Source: Solirubrobacteraceae bacterium
Lineage (GTDB): Bacteria > Actinomycetota > Thermoleophilia > Solirubrobacterales > Solirubrobacteraceae
Direction: 5' to 3'
NCBI GenBank assembly: GCA_030447505.1
Contig: JAUJOT010000002.1
Span: forward strand, 62,001-126,000
Length of the DNA stretch: 64,000 nucleotides
The position numbers were made by a program, and so were the translations under genes. The notes beneath the pieces are model-generated. The model ran no database searches and had not been told where the DNA came from. It saw only the letters and a program-made list of their open reading frames with translations. This document shows, in pieces, positions 29,536 through 41,391 of this stretch (its first letter is position 1; the number at the start of each line of letters is the position of its first letter).

Positions 29536-30659
29536 GACGGTTCAGCGTCGTCTTCTCGAGCTGGCATGGCCGCTACTCCGACAGCCCGCGCGCGATCTCC
29601 GAGGAGCTGCGGCGAACTCGGCCAGAGGTGCGACAGGTGTGGCTGCTCGACGACGAGGCGCCGCACCCGCCGGAGCACGTCGAGCGCGTAGCGACCGGCA
29701 GCCCGGAAGCGGTCGCGGCGCTCGAGGCGGCGCGCTGGATCGTCTCCAACGACGTCCTGCCGATGGCCTTCGAGAAGCGCCCGGACGCGGTCTACCTGCA
29801 GACCTGGCACGGCACGCCGCTCAAGCGGATCGGCTTCGACGTGCGCAACCCGACGTTTCCGGACGCCGAATACCACTACTCCGTGGAGCTCGTGCGGGAG
29901 GTCGCGCGCTGGGACGCCCTGCTGTCGCCGAACCCCTACAGCACCGAGATCCTGCGCGGCGCCTTCCGCTTCGACGGGCCGACGCTCGAGACCGGCCTGC
30001 CGCGCAACGACGCGCTGCAAGGCCCCGATCGCGACGCGCGGCGGGCGGCAGCCCGCGACGCGCTCGGGCTCGAGCCGCAGACCCTGGCGGTGCTGTACGC
30101 GCCGACGTGGCGCGACGACTTCAGCATGACGTTCGAGCTCGACCTCGACGCCGTGCACGCCGCGCTGGGCGACAGCACGGTGCTCCTCGTGCGGGCGCAC
30201 GGCCTCACCGCCGCGCGCACCCAGCTGCGGCCCGCAGCGGGCATGCGCGACGTCACGCGCTGGCCGGACATCACGGACCTGTACCTCGCCGCGGACGTGC
30301 TTCTGACCGACTACTCGTCGGCGATGGTCGACTTCGCGATCACCGGGAAGCCGCAACTGTTCTTCACCTACGACCTCGACGACTACCGCGACCGCGTCCG
30401 CGGCTTCTACCTCGAGCTCGAGGCGGTGGTGCCGGGCCCGCTGCTGGCGACGACGCACGAGGTGATCGAGGCGCTCCGGGACCTGGAGGCGGTCGCCGCA
30501 GCCCACAGACGGGCCTACCGGCGCTTCGTCGAGCGCTTCTGTGGGCTGGACGACGGGCGCGCGAGCAGCCGCGCGATTCAGGCGCTGCTCGGCGACGGCG
30601 TGAAGAGGCCGGCGATCGCATCGAAGTCGCCGCGGTCGAGCCGCACTCTCGGCGCCTGA
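29532..30659 (+). CDS. CDP-glycerol glycerophosphotransferase-like protein
   Basis: A 375-residue TagB/TagF-type enzyme. Typical segments are YLQTWHGTPLKRIGFD, the YHYSVELVREVARWDALLSPNPYS region, VLYAPTWRD and LLTDYSSAMVDFAITGKPQLFFTYDLDDY. These enzymes transfer glycerol phosphate (or related) units when teichoic-acid-like polymers are built. The start is a TTG overlapping the previous stop (TTGA, 29532-29535). The last 82 bases overlap the convergent aldo/keto reductase, and the C-terminal 20 residues (KRPAIASKSPRSSRTLGA) look unconserved. It completes a three-gene operon for a surface polymer. Confidence 0.85.
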   Translation: MRRFSVVFSSWHGRYSDSPRAISEELRRTRPEVRQVWLLDDEAPHPPEHVERVATGSPEAVAALEAARWIVSNDVLPMAFEKRPDAVYLQTWHGTPLKRIGFDVRNPTFPDAEYHYSVELVREVARWDALLSPNPYSTEILRGAFRFDGPTLETGLPRNDALQGPDRDARRAAARDALGLEPQTLAVLYAPTWRDDFSMTFELDLDAVHAALGDSTVLLVRAHGLTAARTQLRPAAGMRDVTRWPDITDLYLAADVLLTDYSSAMVDFAITGKPQLFFTYDLDDYRDRVRGFYLELEAVVPGPLLATTHEVIEALRDLEAVAAAHRRAYRRFVERFCGLDDGRASSRAIQALLGDGVKRPAIASKSPRSSRTLGA

Positions 30660-31453
30660 GCCGAGTCGAGGGCGCTCTCGGGGCGGCTCGCGCCGGGGAT
30701 CGGGATCACGACCTCCGAGCACGCCAGCAGCCAGGCGAGGATGACGCGGTACGGCGAGAAGCCGTAGCGCTGCGCGACCGCGCGCAGCGGAGCGGCTGCA
30801 TCGCCGAGCACCGCCGCGCGCTCGATGCCGCCGAACGGCGACCACGGCAGGAACGCGATCCCGTACCGCTCGCACGTCTCGAGCTCGCCGTTTCGCAGGG
30901 GCTGAGCGAAGCACGGCGACAGCTCGTTCTGCACCGAGGCGACGTCCACGATCCGGCGCGCCGCCTCGATCTGCGCCACGGTGACGTTCGAGATCCCGAC
31001 CAGGCGGACCTTCCCGGCCTGCTGGAGCTCGCGCAGCGCCCCGACCGACTCCTCGAACGGGACCGCGGGGTCGGGGCGGTGGAACTGGTAGAGGTCGATG
31101 CACTCGACCTCCAGCCGCCGCAGCGACGCCTCGCACGCCGCCTTCAGATGCTCGGGCCGCCCGTCGAGCTCCCACGCGCTGCCACGCCGGGTGTGCCCAC
31201 CCTTCGTCGCGACGAGGACGTCCTCCCGTCGCGAGCAGCTCCGCAGCGCCCGTCCGATCAGGCGCTCGTTGTGCCCGAGCTCCGACTCGTCGCGCGCATA
31301 TGCATCCGCCGTGTCGAGCAGCTGCACGCCGGCATCGACAGCCGCGTGAATCGTGCGCACGCTGCGGCCATCGTCGCGACGGTCACGCGTCGACATCGGC
31401 AGGCAGCCGATCCCGATCGGATGGATCGACCGGTCGCCGAGGTTGCGCTTCAC
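30578..31453 (-). CDS. Aldo/keto reductase
   Basis: A 291-residue AKR-superfamily NADPH oxidoreductase. Tetrad residues are visible: Asp and Tyr in LLDTADAYARDE, Lys in VLVATKGGH and His in LYQFHRPDP. Substrate-phosphate region VIPIPGASRPE binds the cofactor. GTG at 31453 (MKRNLGDRSIHPIGIGC) was chosen over a GTG 15 bases upstream because of a CAGGG-like ribosome site. The substrate cannot be told. Its 3' end lies inside the end of the convergent glycerophosphotransferase gene (82 bases shared). Confidence 0.85.
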   Translation of the reverse strand: MKRNLGDRSIHPIGIGCLPMSTRDRRDDGRSVRTIHAAVDAGVQLLDTADAYARDESELGHNERLIGRALRSCSRREDVLVATKGGHTRRGSAWELDGRPEHLKAACEASLRRLEVECIDLYQFHRPDPAVPFEESVGALRELQQAGKVRLVGISNVTVAQIEAARRIVDVASVQNELSPCFAQPLRNGELETCERYGIAFLPWSPFGGIERAAVLGDAAAPLRAVAQRYGFSPYRVILAWLLACSEVVIPIPGASRPESALDSAQAPRVRLDRGDFDAIAGLFTPSPSSA

Positions 31454-31541
31454 TGAGAGCCCTGCCACGAAAAGGAGCCGATCCGCGCGACGGACGGCGA
31501 CGCAGCAGTCGAGGTTAGCCGGTCGAGGATCTGCCGTGGTG

Positions 31542-31811
31542 TGCGCTCCGAGTACCCGAGAGGCGTATCTCGCGGCCGTGACCGCGTTCGTGCGTGGCTC
31601 GCGAGGCGACGACGGGCCGGCCGGGACGCCCTCGTTGCTTCGCGCGCACGCGATCTCGCCGTGCGTGGCTTGCAAGCGCCAGAAAAGGTCAAGCGGAGCG
31701 TGGGCGCCGGCGTCGGTCAATCAGGCGCTCGCCGTCATCGATCCCTGTTTCGCCTCCTCGGGGCTCGCTGCTGCGATCGAGAGCGCCCGCGCTACCTCGC
31801 CCGCTCGGTAA
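31542..31811 (+). pseudogene. Tyrosine recombinase N-terminal remnant
   Basis: No single frame is intact, but pieces of a site-specific recombinase core-binding (SAM-like) domain line up in order: PSTREAYLAAVTAFV (from about 31548), then one frame over WLARRRRAGRDAL and ASRARDLAVR, then back in the first frame ASVNQALAVIDPCFASSGL, ending at TAA 31811. Two frameshifts are needed and the catalytic domain (R-H-R-Y) is absent. The order and wording fit phage/transposon integrases of actinobacteria. It marks the left side of a decayed mobile region that continues to about 36.2 kb. Confidence 0.5.
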
Positions 31812-31986
31812 CGCCGTTGGTGCGGCGACCGGCGATGACCGCGCTGCTGATCCAGGCGACGCAGTAGAGGGCCTTGACGCGACGGGAACGCGTCCGCCAC
31901 GACGTGTCCAGCTTTCGCATCACGAGCCATCGAAGCGGACCCGCCGGGTACCAGCTGCGCGCACGGCTCCGCCAAGCGTCCCGCAA
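31792..31986 (-). CDS. Small hypothetical protein
   Basis: A possible 64-residue product with a TTG start, 15 bases after the membrane protein gene on the same strand. Codon third positions are mostly G or C, as in true genes of this chromosome. A hydrophobic stretch VKALYCVAWISSAVIAG near the C-terminus could be a membrane helix. No family recognised, and it overlaps the recombinase remnant by 20 bases; it may not be expressed. Confidence 0.3.
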   Translation of the reverse strand: MRDAWRSRARSWYPAGPLRWLVMRKLDTSWRTRSRRVKALYCVAWISSAVIAGRRTNGVTERAR

Positions 31987-32001
31987 ATGTAGACGCGCCG
32001 G

Positions 32002-32247
32002 TCAGCTGCGCGTCTGACGCCGCGTCACCCATGCGCCTGCGATGACCGAGAGCGCAACGGACGCGATCATCGGGAGGGGGTAGGCGTTGCTGAGCCAGTT
32101 GGACACGGCCCCGCACTCCGCGTCTCGGCACGACACGCCTTCCCCGGCCGCCATGGCCAGTCCCAGCGTGATCGCGATGAGCGCGCCGTAGACGACGACC
32201 GCCGTTAGCACGAAGCAGACGGCAGCGCGCACCGAGTCAGCGGTCAC
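32002..32247 (-). CDS. Small two-helix membrane protein
   Basis: An 81-residue protein with two membrane segments, VCFVLTAVVVYGALIAITLGLAM (about residues 10-32) and PMIASVALSVIAGAWV (about 59-74). Between them is a loop with two cysteines (SCRDAECGAV), which could form a disulfide outside the membrane. Basic residues at the C-terminus (TRRQTRS) place that end in the cytoplasm. The family is not recognised. It stands between the recombinase remnant and the nuclease gene. Confidence 0.55.
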   Translation of the reverse strand: MTADSVRAAVCFVLTAVVVYGALIAITLGLAMAAGEGVSCRDAECGAVSNWLSNAYPLPMIASVALSVIAGAWVTRRQTRS

Positions 32248-32315
32248 GCCGAGATCGTATTCGCCGTAGCGCGGGCACGACGCGCCTTTGGCGTCGAAGC
32301 GGAAGCCTCGACCTA

Positions 32316-32603
32316 ATGGCCGAATCGCTTCCGTTCAAGGCAGCCGTTACCGCGGTGACCAAGCCGGCCGCGCTCACGCCTGACGATCTCGCGGAACGAG
32401 CGACCGGCCTCGCCTGCGTCGTCGCCGGTTTCGCCGGACTCGAACTGGACCGCCGACTCAGATGCCCGATGGTCGACATAGGCATCGAGTCCCGCAGGAG
32501 CCTCGCCGAGTGTTCGTCGTCCTCCTCGGCCGTTCAAGGGCGCTTCGACGAGATGCGTGACTCGCGCGATCCGAGAGCGCGCCAGCGCGCGCGTGGCGAC
32601 TAG
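32316..32603 (+). CDS. Hypothetical protein, doubtful
   Basis: A 95-codon open frame ending 9 bases before the GIY-YIG gene. The first 65 residues (MAESLPFKAAVTAV to IESRRSLAE) have plausible codon use and an ATLACVVAGFAGLELD-like hydrophobic core; the tail is Ser/Arg-rich and looks non-coding. An equally long frame exists on the other strand. No family recognised. It may be a real short gene, an upstream partner of the nuclease, or chance. Confidence 0.3.
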   Translation: MAESLPFKAAVTAVTKPAALTPDDLAERATGLACVVAGFAGLELDRRLRCPMVDIGIESRRSLAECSSSSSAVQGRFDEMRDSRDPRARQRARGD

Positions 32604-32612
32604 GGTCAAGGC

Positions 32613-33512
32613 GTGCGAGGACGCTACCGCTTCAACTCAGACGAGATCGCGTGGATCCGTGAGCAGCTCGTGCAGTTGCGAGTGGCCGAGCGCGAGCCGC
32701 AGAAGCGGATCCGCGCTCGTCTTCGGCGCGCTGAGTTCCGCATCAGCGACTGGGCCACCGACAAGGAGGGCTTCACCGCGTCGGACTTCGACGCTCTGGT
32801 GGCGACCGGGCGGATCGTTCGCGACGACAGCGTCGGGGCGATATGCGTCGGCCCTGATCCGGTCGACGTCGGCGTGTCCGGCGGACCGATCGACACGTGG
32901 GTCGAAGCCGAACTTGCCGCGGCGATCGCCGCCCTGACTGCGCCGCGACACGACGTCGCCGAGCTGATGGCGAGCGCCGACGTCGGCCGCGAGCCCGGCG
33001 CCGAGCTTGACAGCCCGGGGCTCTACGCGCTGTACGCCAGCGCGGCGACGTGGCGGCATCTCGGCTTGGGGAAGCCACCCGACGATCGGCCGCTATACGT
33101 CGGCAAGGCCGAGGACAGTCTCGTCACACGCGACCTGCGCACGCACTTCGTCACCGGCGCGACGGGGCGTTCCTCACCGCGACGCTCGTTCGCCGCTCTC
33201 CTGGTCGACGACTTGGCGCTCGTGCCGATGCCCCGACGGCCTGACAACCCCGAGCCTGCGAAGTGGACCCACTACTCGCTTGAGCCAGATGGCGACGAGC
33301 GACTGACCGGCTGGATGCTCAAGCATCTAAAGCTCGCCGCCTGGCCGTCGCGAGCCGTCAGCCCACTGGGAGCGATGGAGCGCGCGGTAACGCAGCACTG
33401 GCGCCCGCCGCTGAATCTGACAAGCGTTCAGCAGCTGTGGTGCGGGCAGGTGCGTGCCGCACGTGCCGCGCTCGCGCGGGCCGCCGAGGACTGGGCGCGC
33501 CGGCGAGGGTAG
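32613..33512 (+). CDS. GIY-YIG nuclease-family protein
   Basis: A 299-residue protein with a C-terminal GIY-YIG-like nuclease domain. PGLYALY (135-141) supplies the GIY strand and PLYVGKAEDSL (160-170) the YIG strand, with a longer than usual spacer. Arg173/Arg176 (TRDLRTHF), Glu256 (AMERAVTQHW) and Asn268 (RPPLN) occupy the positions of the catalytic Arg, metal-binding Glu and conserved Asn. The N-terminal about 80 residues (RYRFNSDEIAWIREQL to SDFDALVATGRIV) look like a separate helical, possibly DNA-binding, domain. Start is GTG at 32613. Stand-alone nucleases of this kind are known from actinobacteria with no assigned role; it sits in a mobile region beside an IS110 element. Confidence 0.75.
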   Translation: MRGRYRFNSDEIAWIREQLVQLRVAEREPQKRIRARLRRAEFRISDWATDKEGFTASDFDALVATGRIVRDDSVGAICVGPDPVDVGVSGGPIDTWVEAELAAAIAALTAPRHDVAELMASADVGREPGAELDSPGLYALYASAATWRHLGLGKPPDDRPLYVGKAEDSLVTRDLRTHFVTGATGRSSPRRSFAALLVDDLALVPMPRRPDNPEPAKWTHYSLEPDGDERLTGWMLKHLKLAAWPSRAVSPLGAMERAVTQHWRPPLNLTSVQQLWCGQVRAARAALARAAEDWARRRG

Positions 33513-33853
33513 GCGATGTGAAGGTCGAGCGCGTGGATCGACAACCCGCAGCCGCGTCGCGCGGCCAGGCCAGTTCACGACAGGGAGCAGTCCGCCCCGA
33601 CGAGAGTGCTCTCACTGTCATCGTCGATGGGGTTGGGCGGTGCCGTCCGACGGTTGCGGTTGGTTCTCGGGCTGGCGGCGGGCTGACTCTGAGAGCGCTT
33701 GCCGACCGATCTGGTCTGGCCAGCAAACGTTCTGTCGCCCGTCGCCGCCCGAGGACCTTCGGCGTGACCTAATAGGAGCGTGGCATCGCCCCAAGTGAGA
33801 GCTGTCCGCCGAACGTCCGCTTCGTCGACGACAGCAACGAAGGGACGGTGCAG
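33513..33853 (+). ncRNA. IS110 left-end non-coding region, candidate bridge RNA
   Basis: This 340-base gap has no convincing gene on the plus strand and ends at the IS110 transposase start. AGTGCTCTCA (33605-33614) can pair with TGAGAGCGCT (33690-33699), a 10-bp stem with one G.U, closing about 75 bases that contain a CCGTC/GACGG hairpin. A shorter stem CTTCGT/ACGAAG lies at about 33820-33842. IS110-group elements encode their guide (bridge) RNA in exactly this position, so the region is a candidate. Loops matching target and donor DNA were not resolved and the element's ends are undefined. Confidence 0.35.
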
Positions 33854-34960
33854 ATGATTGTGATCGGGACGGACACGCACAAGCGCACGCACGCGCTGGT
33901 GGCCGTCGACGAGGGAACCGGCCGGGTGCGTGGCGGCCGCGAGATCAAAGCTGATGAGCCAGGGCATCTCGCCGCGGTGCGCTGGGCGCGCGAGCTCGAT
34001 ACCGACAGGGTGTGGGCGATCGAGGACTGCCGGCATGTCTCGCGTCGCCTTGAGCAGTCGCTGATCGCCGCGGGCGAACGCGTCGTCAGGGTGCCGCCGC
34101 ACCGCATGGGCGCCTCCAGGCGCGGCGAGCGGATACCGGGCAAGTCCGATCAGATCGATGCGCTGGCGATCGCCAGGGCGGTCGTCAAGGACGGTGTCGA
34201 GACGTTCCCCGCCGCATACCTGGACGAGCGCGCGATGGAGATCCGCCTGCTGTCTGATCATCGCGGCGATCTCGTCGCCGAACGCACCCGCATGCAGAGC
34301 CGCCTGAGATGGCATTCTGCTGGAGCTCTGTCCAGACCTCGAGCAGTCGCTCATCCCGCGCTCGCTGGACCGCACCAGGCAGTTAGATCGCGTCGACCGG
34401 CGGCTGCGGCGCATGGTCGTCAGCGCTCGCGTGCGGATCGCACGCGAGGAAGTCGCGCACATCCGAAGCCTGACGCGCCAGATCAACGCGCTCGAACTCG
34501 AGCTCCGCCGTCTCGTCAAGGGCCATCGCCCGCAGCTGCTCGCAGAGACCGGCTGCGGCCCGCTGACCGCCGCGATCCTGATCGGCCGCACCGCCGGCGC
34601 CGAGCGCTTCCGCAGCGAAGCGAGCTTCGCCCGCCAAGCCGGCGTCGCACCGATCAAGTGCTCCTCAGGCCAGCGCGACCGCCACCGATTGCACCGCGGC
34701 GGCGACCGCCAGCTCAACCACGCCCTCCACATCATCGCGATCACCCGCGCCCGCTACGACCCCGACACCAGGGCCTACCTCGCGCGCAAACAAGCCGAAG
34801 GCAAGAGCCGCCGCGAAGCTATCCGCTGCCTCAAGCGCCACCTCGCACGCCGGTTCCACCACATCCTCTTCACCGCCGTGGAGCCGCGACACGAGGACCG
34901 CTACATCGTCACTAGCGCACCCGCACCCATGCCCTGCTTGACATAGGAGAAACGTATGCG
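33605..34960 (+). mobile_element. IS110-family insertion sequence, frameshifted
   Basis: The element consists of a structured left end, a transposase with one frameshift and a short right end. Boundaries are estimates: IS110 elements lack terminal inverted repeats, and no clean target duplication was found between the GIY-YIG gene and the PRC-barrel gene. It lies next to a second, older IS110 remnant at 35.8 kb. Confidence 0.5.
33848..34946 (+). pseudogene. IS110-family transposase, single frameshift
   Basis: The first about 155 codons carry the RuvC-like DEDD domain: IGTDTHKRTHALVAVD, AIEDCRH and GKSDQIDALAIARAVV. At 34313-34317 the frame breaks: the reading TGG CAT T CTG CTG has one extra T at 34316, after which LLELCPDLEQSLIPRSLDR and the Transposase_20 domain continue in the next frame. 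The C-terminal part has TGCGPLTAAILIGRTAGAERF and the catalytic-serine region IKCSSGQRDRHRLHRGGDRQLNHALH. Otherwise both domains are complete (about 365 residues when repaired). A one-base insertion or a sequence error would explain it; no slippery heptamer for programmed shifting is present. Starts at GTG 33848 or ATG 33854. Confidence 0.8.
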
Positions 34961-35002
34961 CGAATACCTGCACTCTCCAGGGCGGCGCGTAGCGTGCGCG
35001 GG

Positions 35003-35542
35003 TCAGGCGTCGGGCCCGGCGTTGTCGCGTGCTCGCTGTGCCTCGATCTCGGCGTCCTCACGAGCGCGGCGGGCGACCGCGGCCTCTTGCTCGGCGGCTT
35101 GCGCTTTGGCGCTCGCGGCATCCTCTTCGGCGCCGTGCTTTCGCGCCTCGTCTTCGAGCTTGACGGCGCTGGCCTGCGCCTCGGCCTGCGCCTTGAGGCG
35201 TTCCTTGCGCGCGTTGCAGCCCTCGAGATCGTCGGGCGTGAGGGCCTGCAGGCGATCGTCGCGGGCCGCGAGCGCAGTGAGCTGCGAGGTCCCGAGCGCC
35301 CCCCCGTGGGCGGCGACGAGATCGTCCGCTGTGGCGGCGAGATGCAGCCCGTCATGACTGACTGAGGCGCCGCGCAGGGCCGCGACGTGGTGCTTGCGCC
35401 CGACCAGCCCGCTGCGGATAGCCACCGCCAGCGGTTCGCTGCCGCGGAAGTACACGTCCTCGAGCGTGCCGAGCTTCGCGCCCGCACTATCGAGGACATC
35501 GGTCCCGATCCAGGTCTCCAGCTGCTGTGCTTCGATCGTCAT
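35003..35542 (-). CDS. PRC-barrel domain protein with charged Ala-rich tail
   Basis: A 179-residue protein. Residues 1-80 form a PRC-barrel (WIGTDVLDSAGAKLGTLEDVYFRGSEPLAVAIRSGLVGRKHHVAALRGASV, a small beta barrel as in photosynthetic reaction centre H subunit and RimM). The C-terminal about 75 residues are an Ala/Glu/Lys/Arg-rich helix, likely coiled coil. Such proteins are frequent in stress-tolerant actinobacteria; their role is unknown. Start MTIEAQQ was chosen as it begins the domain; the upstream open frame is the opposite strand of the next IS110 leader. It lies between two IS110 elements and so may be passenger DNA. Confidence 0.75.
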   Translation of the reverse strand: MTIEAQQLETWIGTDVLDSAGAKLGTLEDVYFRGSEPLAVAIRSGLVGRKHHVAALRGASVSHDGLHLAATADDLVAAHGGALGTSQLTALAARDDRLQALTPDDLEGCNARKERLKAQAEAQASAVKLEDEARKHGAEEDAASAKAQAAEQEAAVARRAREDAEIEAQRARDNAGPDA

Positions 35543-39382: not shown

Positions 39383-39962
39383 CTGGCGAGCACCAAGTCC
39401 GCCGATGCGCGAGTAGATCACGGAGGTGACGATGCACCCGCGGGACTTCGCATCCACGAGCCTCTGGCGTTCGGTGAAGCCGATCTTGACCGGCGCGCGG
39501 GTCGCTGCTCGTCCACGGTGGTAAGGGCGGCCGCCGCCGGGAGGTCGGTGTGGACGAGTGAGCCTGGGCCAACTCTGACCGCGCTTGACGCCCGCACGCA
39601 GCTCGCAGTCGTGCCGCTGTTTTGCGTCGTCACGCATCGATCTGCGGATGTGCGTGATCAGGCACGCCGTACGCGCACAGCTCCGGCAGCTCTCTGCGCT
39701 GCCGGGCGCGCGGGCCGGTCGCGCCGCACCAGCTGCGCCACGCGCATCGCATAGATGGCTCGCGAGGGCATGCCGGACGCCCGGCGAGCGCGACGATCCC
39801 CATCGGCCTGTCGGTGCGCTATGAGCGGCACTCCTGATCGTCGTCTCGACGCGGCAGCGTTGCAAGCAGCTGAGCTACTGCATGCAACTGAGCAGAGCGC
39901 TCGTTGGCGCGACAAGGGGCGCTCGTGGTCAAGCGAGAGCTGGGCGCGCGGCTGGGGGTGGC
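39383..39962. other. Gene-poor stretch of about 580 bases
   Basis: Frames on both strands are short, Arg/Ser-rich and unlike known proteins. The minus strand stays open from the propeller gene up to 39865 but without homology. It may be the lost 5' part of the propeller gene or remains of inserted DNA. I see nothing specific in it. Confidence 0.3.
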
Positions 39963-40944: not shown

Positions 40945-41391
40945 AGCGGGAGGATACGGCGCTCATGGTCGCGACGAAACCCCCCGCCGCACTCGAACCG
41001 AGCTCGCCGGCCGCTACGCCGCCCGAGAGTGCTCCTCCTCGACGAACTGAGCGCTCTGGCTCGTCGCAGATCTGCCGCCTCCGTCGGGACGCCGAGGGCG
41101 AGCGACCGAAGGCGCCGAGAATGGCGCGTCTCGCGCCGTGAGCGCGGGCGGCGTGCAAGCGCCGCCCATACGCGAAGGCGGCACGGCCGAGGGGGACGAG
41201 GGACTGCCGCCTGGCATGGTGGCTGTTGCTAACTACGGCCAGGCGACGGCATGGCGCGGTGAGTGTCATGGAAAGCGACAGCGGCGCCGCAGCGAGGCGT
41301 GGCCGCCGACTGTCGGCTCAACGAGTGCTGCCGTCGTAGTCGACGCTCGGCAGCCATGCGCGCTACCGGCGCGCGCGATCATGGCACCTCA
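40945..41391. other. Gene-poor stretch
   Basis: About 450 bases without a gene I can support. Open frames on both strands are rich in Arg, Ser and Pro with no homology. It must hold the promoter of the minus-strand gene at 40465-40944 near 40960-41000, but no clear hexamers stand out. Confidence 0.3.

Follow-up and report, generated by a model that had tools for sequence, protein, structure and literature searches.

A predicted bridge RNA with target and donor guides in an IS110-group element of a Solirubrobacteraceae bacterium

IS621 inserts into a palindromic REP sequence. Its RNA is encoded in the left end of the element, and the target loop is followed by the donor loop, with the guides in the order LTG, RTG, LDG, RDG (PMC11208160, PMC11208158). 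The seekRNA of ISEc21, another IS110-family element, for which natural reprogramming of the guides has been reported, comes from a non-coding region upstream of the transposase gene; its bottom-strand match precedes its top-strand complement, and no target base is duplicated on insertion (PMC11187229). Among actinobacteria, the IS110 member IS900 of Mycobacterium avium subsp. paratuberculosis is associated with a start-codon-linked motif, CATGNNNNNNTCTCCTT (PMC8141618).

In the present study, we analyzed an element in a 64,000-nucleotide stretch of contig JAUJOT010000002.1 (assembly GCA_030447505.1; hereafter, the window), which shares with IS621 the RNA in the left end and the order of loops and guides, and with ISEc21 the upstream non-coding region, the order of the two matches and insertion without duplication. 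As in IS621, left guides go with the bottom strand and right guides with the top strand; there are handshake-like segments, and the first core base is C or G. The left end of this element very probably encodes a bridge RNA with target- and donor-binding hairpins, the guides of which read the target and the element ends, because the structural covariation and the correspondences between guides and DNA, both obtained by comparison of copies, agree with such an RNA. The features are listed in Table 1.

Table 1. Features of the IS110-group element and its insertion site (window positions)
Feature	Position	Strand	Description	Basis
IS110-group element	33612-34953	+	1342 bp, no-duplication convention	homology limits, empty sites, palindrome register
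Left non-coding end, predicted to encode the bridge RNA	33612-33853	+		covariance model; pairing in relatives
Target-binding hairpin	33675-33745	+	stem 33675-33687/33734-33745, inner stem-loop 33701-33720	RNAalifold, pair counts
Left target guide	33690-33700	+	same sense as left target AGAGTGCTC, 33603-33611	permutation tests
Right target guide AGCAAAC	33722-33728	+	complement of right target GTATGCG 34954-34960, 5/7 pairs	permutation
Handshake-like GTTC	33729-33732	+	matches right end	permutation, 7/20000
Donor-binding hairpin	33753-33818	+	stem 33753-33768/33804-33818, inner stem 33782-33790	RNAalifold, pair counts
Left donor guide ATAGGAGC	33772-33779	+	same sense as right end ATAGGAG 34943-34949	sequence identity
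Right donor guide AGTGAGAG	33794-33801	+	complement of CTCTCACT at 33609-33616	permutation
Transposase gene	33854-34946	+	RuvC-like DEDD + Transposase_20	Pfam; alignment to intact copy
TTGACA, candidate -35 box	34938-34943	+		conserved in right ends
Left target half, host DNA	33602-33611	+	part of palindrome	unoccupied palindromes of 7-18-7 layout
Right target half, host DNA	34954-34976	+	part of palindrome	unoccupied palindromes of 7-18-7 layout

The element, its ends and its copies

The ends of the element, T(CACTGTC) at the 5' side and (GGAGAAA)C at the 3' side, were set from the limits of homology across copies, the empty orthologous sites of a relative and the register of unoccupied palindromes. 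In the comparison with about 40 relatives, the element begins at T33612 (TCACTGTCATCG) and finishes at C34953 (TTGACATAGGAGAAAC). For the insertion L052, two empty orthologous sites were available, and these, together with the unoccupied palindromes in the genome, show no duplication of a target base. An empty orthologous site of the window insertion itself was not found among 40 relatives, and thus its register was taken from these same two sources; the expected empty site is ...GAGAGTGCTC-GTATGCGCGAATACCTGCACTCTC. At the left junction, a target base (C or G in all copies read) precedes T, and at the right junction C is followed by any base, so that the predicted circle junction is GAAAC|TCACTG. 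Given these ends, 33513-33611 is host flank.

The long non-coding region upstream of the IS110 transposase gene, pointed out in the initial annotation, was confirmed: it is 242 bp long, and the right end, short as in the IS110 group, overlaps the stop codon of the gene (TAG, 34944-34946). Assignment to the IS1111 group, defined by a non-coding RNA region downstream of the transposase gene and longer subterminal inverted repeats, was rejected, since here the RNA lies upstream and almost nothing follows the gene. A Pfam search of the window detected both PF01548 and PF02371, in different frames, as the gene carries a single additional base at about 34315 when aligned to intact copies; it is thus whole apart from one base, as had been read from the sequence at the outset. 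The intact homologue scores 184 bits with the NCBIfam model NF033542 (IS110 family RNA-guided transposase), above its cut-off of 140, and matches IS621 (8wt6) and ISCro4 (9t56).

Further copies were found in the same genome. The second (C10:158804-160175, L002/L008) has an intact transposase gene; the intact copy is about 80% identical to the window element, and its RNA is 99% identical. It is possible that the window copy, whose RNA and both ends look intact while its own transposase is broken, is mobilised in trans by this copy. The third (C10:~29976-32383, L009) is interrupted by another insertion sequence; positions 2325-3392 of L009 hold an insertion sequence of approximately 1.06 kb with an integrase-type transposase and apparently a short target duplication (GCTAGC). 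A remnant lies at C7:~302800 (L010). Plasmid records contained no full element, the similarity there being partial and mostly at the level of the transposase. The suggestion that the element is recent was not established.

Structure of the RNA and matches of its guides

RNAalifold analysis of 27 sequences gave two consecutive hairpins, each with an inner stem-loop. Compensatory changes on both sides occur at 18 of the 36 pairs, against 8.3 +/- 1.5 in shuffled alignments, and 94.8% of cells are paired in the 27 relatives, a value that drops to 29-45% once the 3' partners are slid. The minimum-energy fold of the single sequence nests the hairpins differently, and we preferred the fold from the alignment. 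The RNA itself may extend from about 33631 to 33822. The covariance model built for it, R1, matches 33675-33820 with 150 bits, a score to be read with the window sequence being a member of the model; a minus-strand match at 33656-33745 (E 0.18) was set aside as chance. Rfam contained no matching family. Matches to R1 were found in 37 of the 146 genomes of the family and in 29 of 396 genomes sampled across the phylum.

In many copies, the conserved CTGACTC (33683-33689) is followed in the RNA by a repeat of the left flanking DNA, for example TAGCCTCGAT in L062, TAGTCTCGA in L030, TTATCGCCC in L029 and GAAATAGCG in L025. Over 30 loci, the summed longest match between this left target guide and the flank was 193 against 105.8 +/- 7.0 (0/20000 permutations), and a held-out set of 29 loci, which the covariance model identified later, gave 165 against 116.8 +/- 5.5 (0/20000), although the loci are related and these counts are not exact probabilities. 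Held-out examples are CCGGCATCCT in L176 and TGACGTTTCT in L162. For L031, L054, L063 and L010, the left end had been set from the right donor guide prior to this test. The signal was weaker in the window subclade alone (P = 0.08 for the longest match, 0.017 for the ungapped score), and the flanks of some copies match poorly (longest match 3 nt in L042 and L055, 4 nt in L002 and L053).

The right target guide forms 68 of 126 possible Watson-Crick pairs with the right target, compared with 40.3 +/- 5.5 in permutations (0/20000). A further guide match is GAAAGCA in L031, and the right target guides of held-out loci agree (L173 GCATGCAG, L179 TCGTTATC, L153 GGATACC); in a number of copies (L029, L064, L054, L036), this guide matches poorly. 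The left donor guide is nearly invariant in the family, with a single matched change, ATAGAAGC, present in both the RNA and the right end of L043. For the right donor guide, 143 of 162 pairs were formed against 107 +/- 4.6 (0/20000), and the pair C33615-G33795 is replaced by G-C, a compensatory change, in the copy L008/L002. A sublineage (L031, L054, L063, L010) has a different left end (GGCTTGCTG), and in three of these four the right donor guide is changed to match (AGCAAGCC). Furthermore, copies that carry one RNA at several sites have a common target, as the guides predict. The expectation that loop sequences would match the donor ends and the target flanks was thus borne out, with all four guides placed, and it is the covariation and these matches that make the left end readable as an IS110 bridge RNA at the sequence level.

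The stem originally proposed for this RNA had no part in it. The segments 33605-33614 (AGTGCTCTCA) and 33690-33699 (TGAGAGCGCT) are complementary over ten bases, including one G-U, and eight or nine of the ten pairs are kept in some relatives with a similar palindromic target. However, seven of the ten bases of the 5' arm (33605-33611) are host DNA outside the element, the ends of which had been expected to include the stem, and in the fold of 33600-33853 the two arms are unpaired with each other, the 5' arm pairing around 33794-33801 instead. The surrounding sequence has many inverted matches of such a size (26 pairs in 1.65 kb). Conservation of the stem among related copies, also expected at first, was not observed: across 30 copies, between 2 and 10 of the 10 pairs can form in the equivalent segments (5.3 on average, with 4.6 expected by chance; P = 0.003), most of the excess comes from copies whose target is palindromic, and 2-5 of the 10 pairs are left in most other lineages. 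A genuine stem at this place is hardly credible, since the element ends refute it unless the RNA begins in host DNA. The 10-bp stem is a look-alike that comes from the insertion site: what was taken for its 3' arm belongs to the left target guide, which carries more information than any other part of the RNA, and the arms appear complementary because the target of the window copy is a palindrome. A structured leader that controls transposase expression without any guide RNA could also account for a conserved left end lying directly upstream of the transposase gene and for its strong structure (z -4.1 for 33625-33825), but such a leader leaves unexplained why unpaired loop segments follow the flanks and the element ends in independent copies, and we regard it as highly improbable beside a bridge RNA.

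Target sites of the window copy and its relatives

The window copy sits between convergent genes, namely a GIY-YIG gene ending at 33512 and a probable minus-strand gene, with no Pfam match, ending at 35003. When its flanks are rejoined, they give AGAGTGC-TC|GTATG-CGCG-AATACCT-GCACTCT, an imperfect palindrome of about 32 bp, and those of L008 give AGAGTGC-CC|CTCTT-CGCG-CATACGA-GCGCTCT. The genome has 7 unoccupied palindromes of the same layout, compared with 2 matches to the reversed pattern, which are small numbers, and several of the palindromes have the central CGCG; a congener (G006) has two similar palindromes, a count not above its control. A loose palindrome pattern allowing 3 mismatches performed no better than background, and the arm-based pattern was used. 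Two unoccupied target-like palindromes occur in the window itself, at 41026-41057 and 39893-39911 (AGAGTGC-N18-GCGCTCT; CAGAGCGCTCGTTGGCGCG). The target of the window copy is likely REP-like.

The arms of this palindrome, GAGAGTGC (33602-33609) and GCACTCTC (34970-34977), might instead be terminal inverted repeats of an element spanning 33602-34977, with the supposed target lying inside it. They flank the element as a perfect inverted repeat, and copy L008 has a similar pair. However, the right repeat is absent in L009, L019 and L048, palindromes of the same layout occur in the genome without the element, the homology of relatives stops at 33612 and 34953, and repeats of this kind are not a known feature of IS110 elements (PMC11208158). 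This alternative is very improbable, and we take the palindrome as host target DNA.

The guides of L008 appear to have been exchanged. Over 33661-33822, L008 and the window share 99% identity, whereas the transposase gene of L008 is 98-100% identical to that of L009 and 73-84% to that of the window. Its insertion site, CAGAGTGC...|CTCTTCG, fits the guides of L009 (CAGAGTGC, CTTTTCG) better than its own. The simplest account would be that the RNA cassette of L008 was converted after insertion.

Five related RNAs, with guides for a TAnnnT-like sequence and for ATG/GTG, account for 15 insertions of another kind. A TAnnnT hexamer and a start codon flank the insertion at all 15 sites (L217-L227, L028, L052, L173, L148), against TAnnnT in 1 of 14 other sites; as the 15 were picked for a start codon at the right, the informative part is TAnnnT at a near-fixed spacing. 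This spacing is 6-7 nt in 13 of the 15 and 9 in L225; in L224, it is 4 or 6, according to the GTG taken as the start. The downstream frames are mostly long (that of L218 closes after 22 codons), and the genes are apparently leaderless. The TAG of the transposase gene shares bases with AGGAG, with the start codon of the host gene at about +9. These sites fit an element that would capture a host promoter and leave the host gene translated. We tend to favour a reading that joins these observations: the guides of the relatives would read a promoter, the left one the -10 hexamer TAnnnT and the right one the start codon of leaderless genes, with the element landing in between; the bridge RNA and the transposase gene would be transcribed from the host promoter, and the right end would supply a ribosome site, with the host gene translated in an operon with the transposase. 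The window lineage would have been re-aimed at a palindromic intergenic repeat, with guide cassettes moving by gene conversion. An earlier description of such promoter and start-codon targeting was not found in the literature searched, the coverage of which was incomplete.

For the window copy, the right end would pair with 33772-33779 and the left end with 33794-33801 of the donor hairpin, and the recombinase would join the excised circle (GAAAC|TCACTG) to the target by means of both loops, the target used being the palindrome of about 32 bp between the convergent genes. Across the circle junction, TTGACA would face 33619-33624 (CATCGT, with TGT before it) at a spacer of 17 nt, the sequence across the right-end/left-end junction holding TTGACA, the 17-nt spacer and TGTCATCGT. 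This arrangement may form a promoter at the circle junction; transcription from there, loading of the recombinase and strand exchange would then follow. At 34938-34953 and in the right ends of relatives, TTGACATAGGAG combines the -35-like box, the TAG stop, the ribosome-site-like AGGAG and the left donor sequence (12 bases).

Comparison with described IS110 systems

An actinobacterial family of bridge RNAs with four located guides is now accompanied by a covariance model usable across the phylum, and its natural insertion pairs test the guide rules. If true, targeting of promoters and start codons explains how a guided element spares its host yet gains expression, and the sister lineages merit separate study. 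The closest parallel to the TAnnnT/start-codon lineages is the IS900 motif CATGNNNNNNTCTCCTT, but in the other orientation that motif is a ribosome site with a start codon, whereas the relatives here have a -10-like box with a start codon; the target of the window copy is of neither type. ISEc21 differs in its target and its host. The protein similarity to IS621 is weak (E 3e-10). Furthermore, IS621 has CT at both junctions, and here the left junction is the target C or G followed by T and the right one is C followed by any base. A shared CT core of the IS621 type was thus rejected, since CT occurs only at the predicted circle junction; the inferred target dinucleotides are CG in the window copy, GG in L052 and CA in L028. 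Junctions in which no core dinucleotide is shared would help to define what such recombinases require. The window copy very probably has an IS110 bridge RNA of the established kind, with junctions that depart from the shared CT of IS621.
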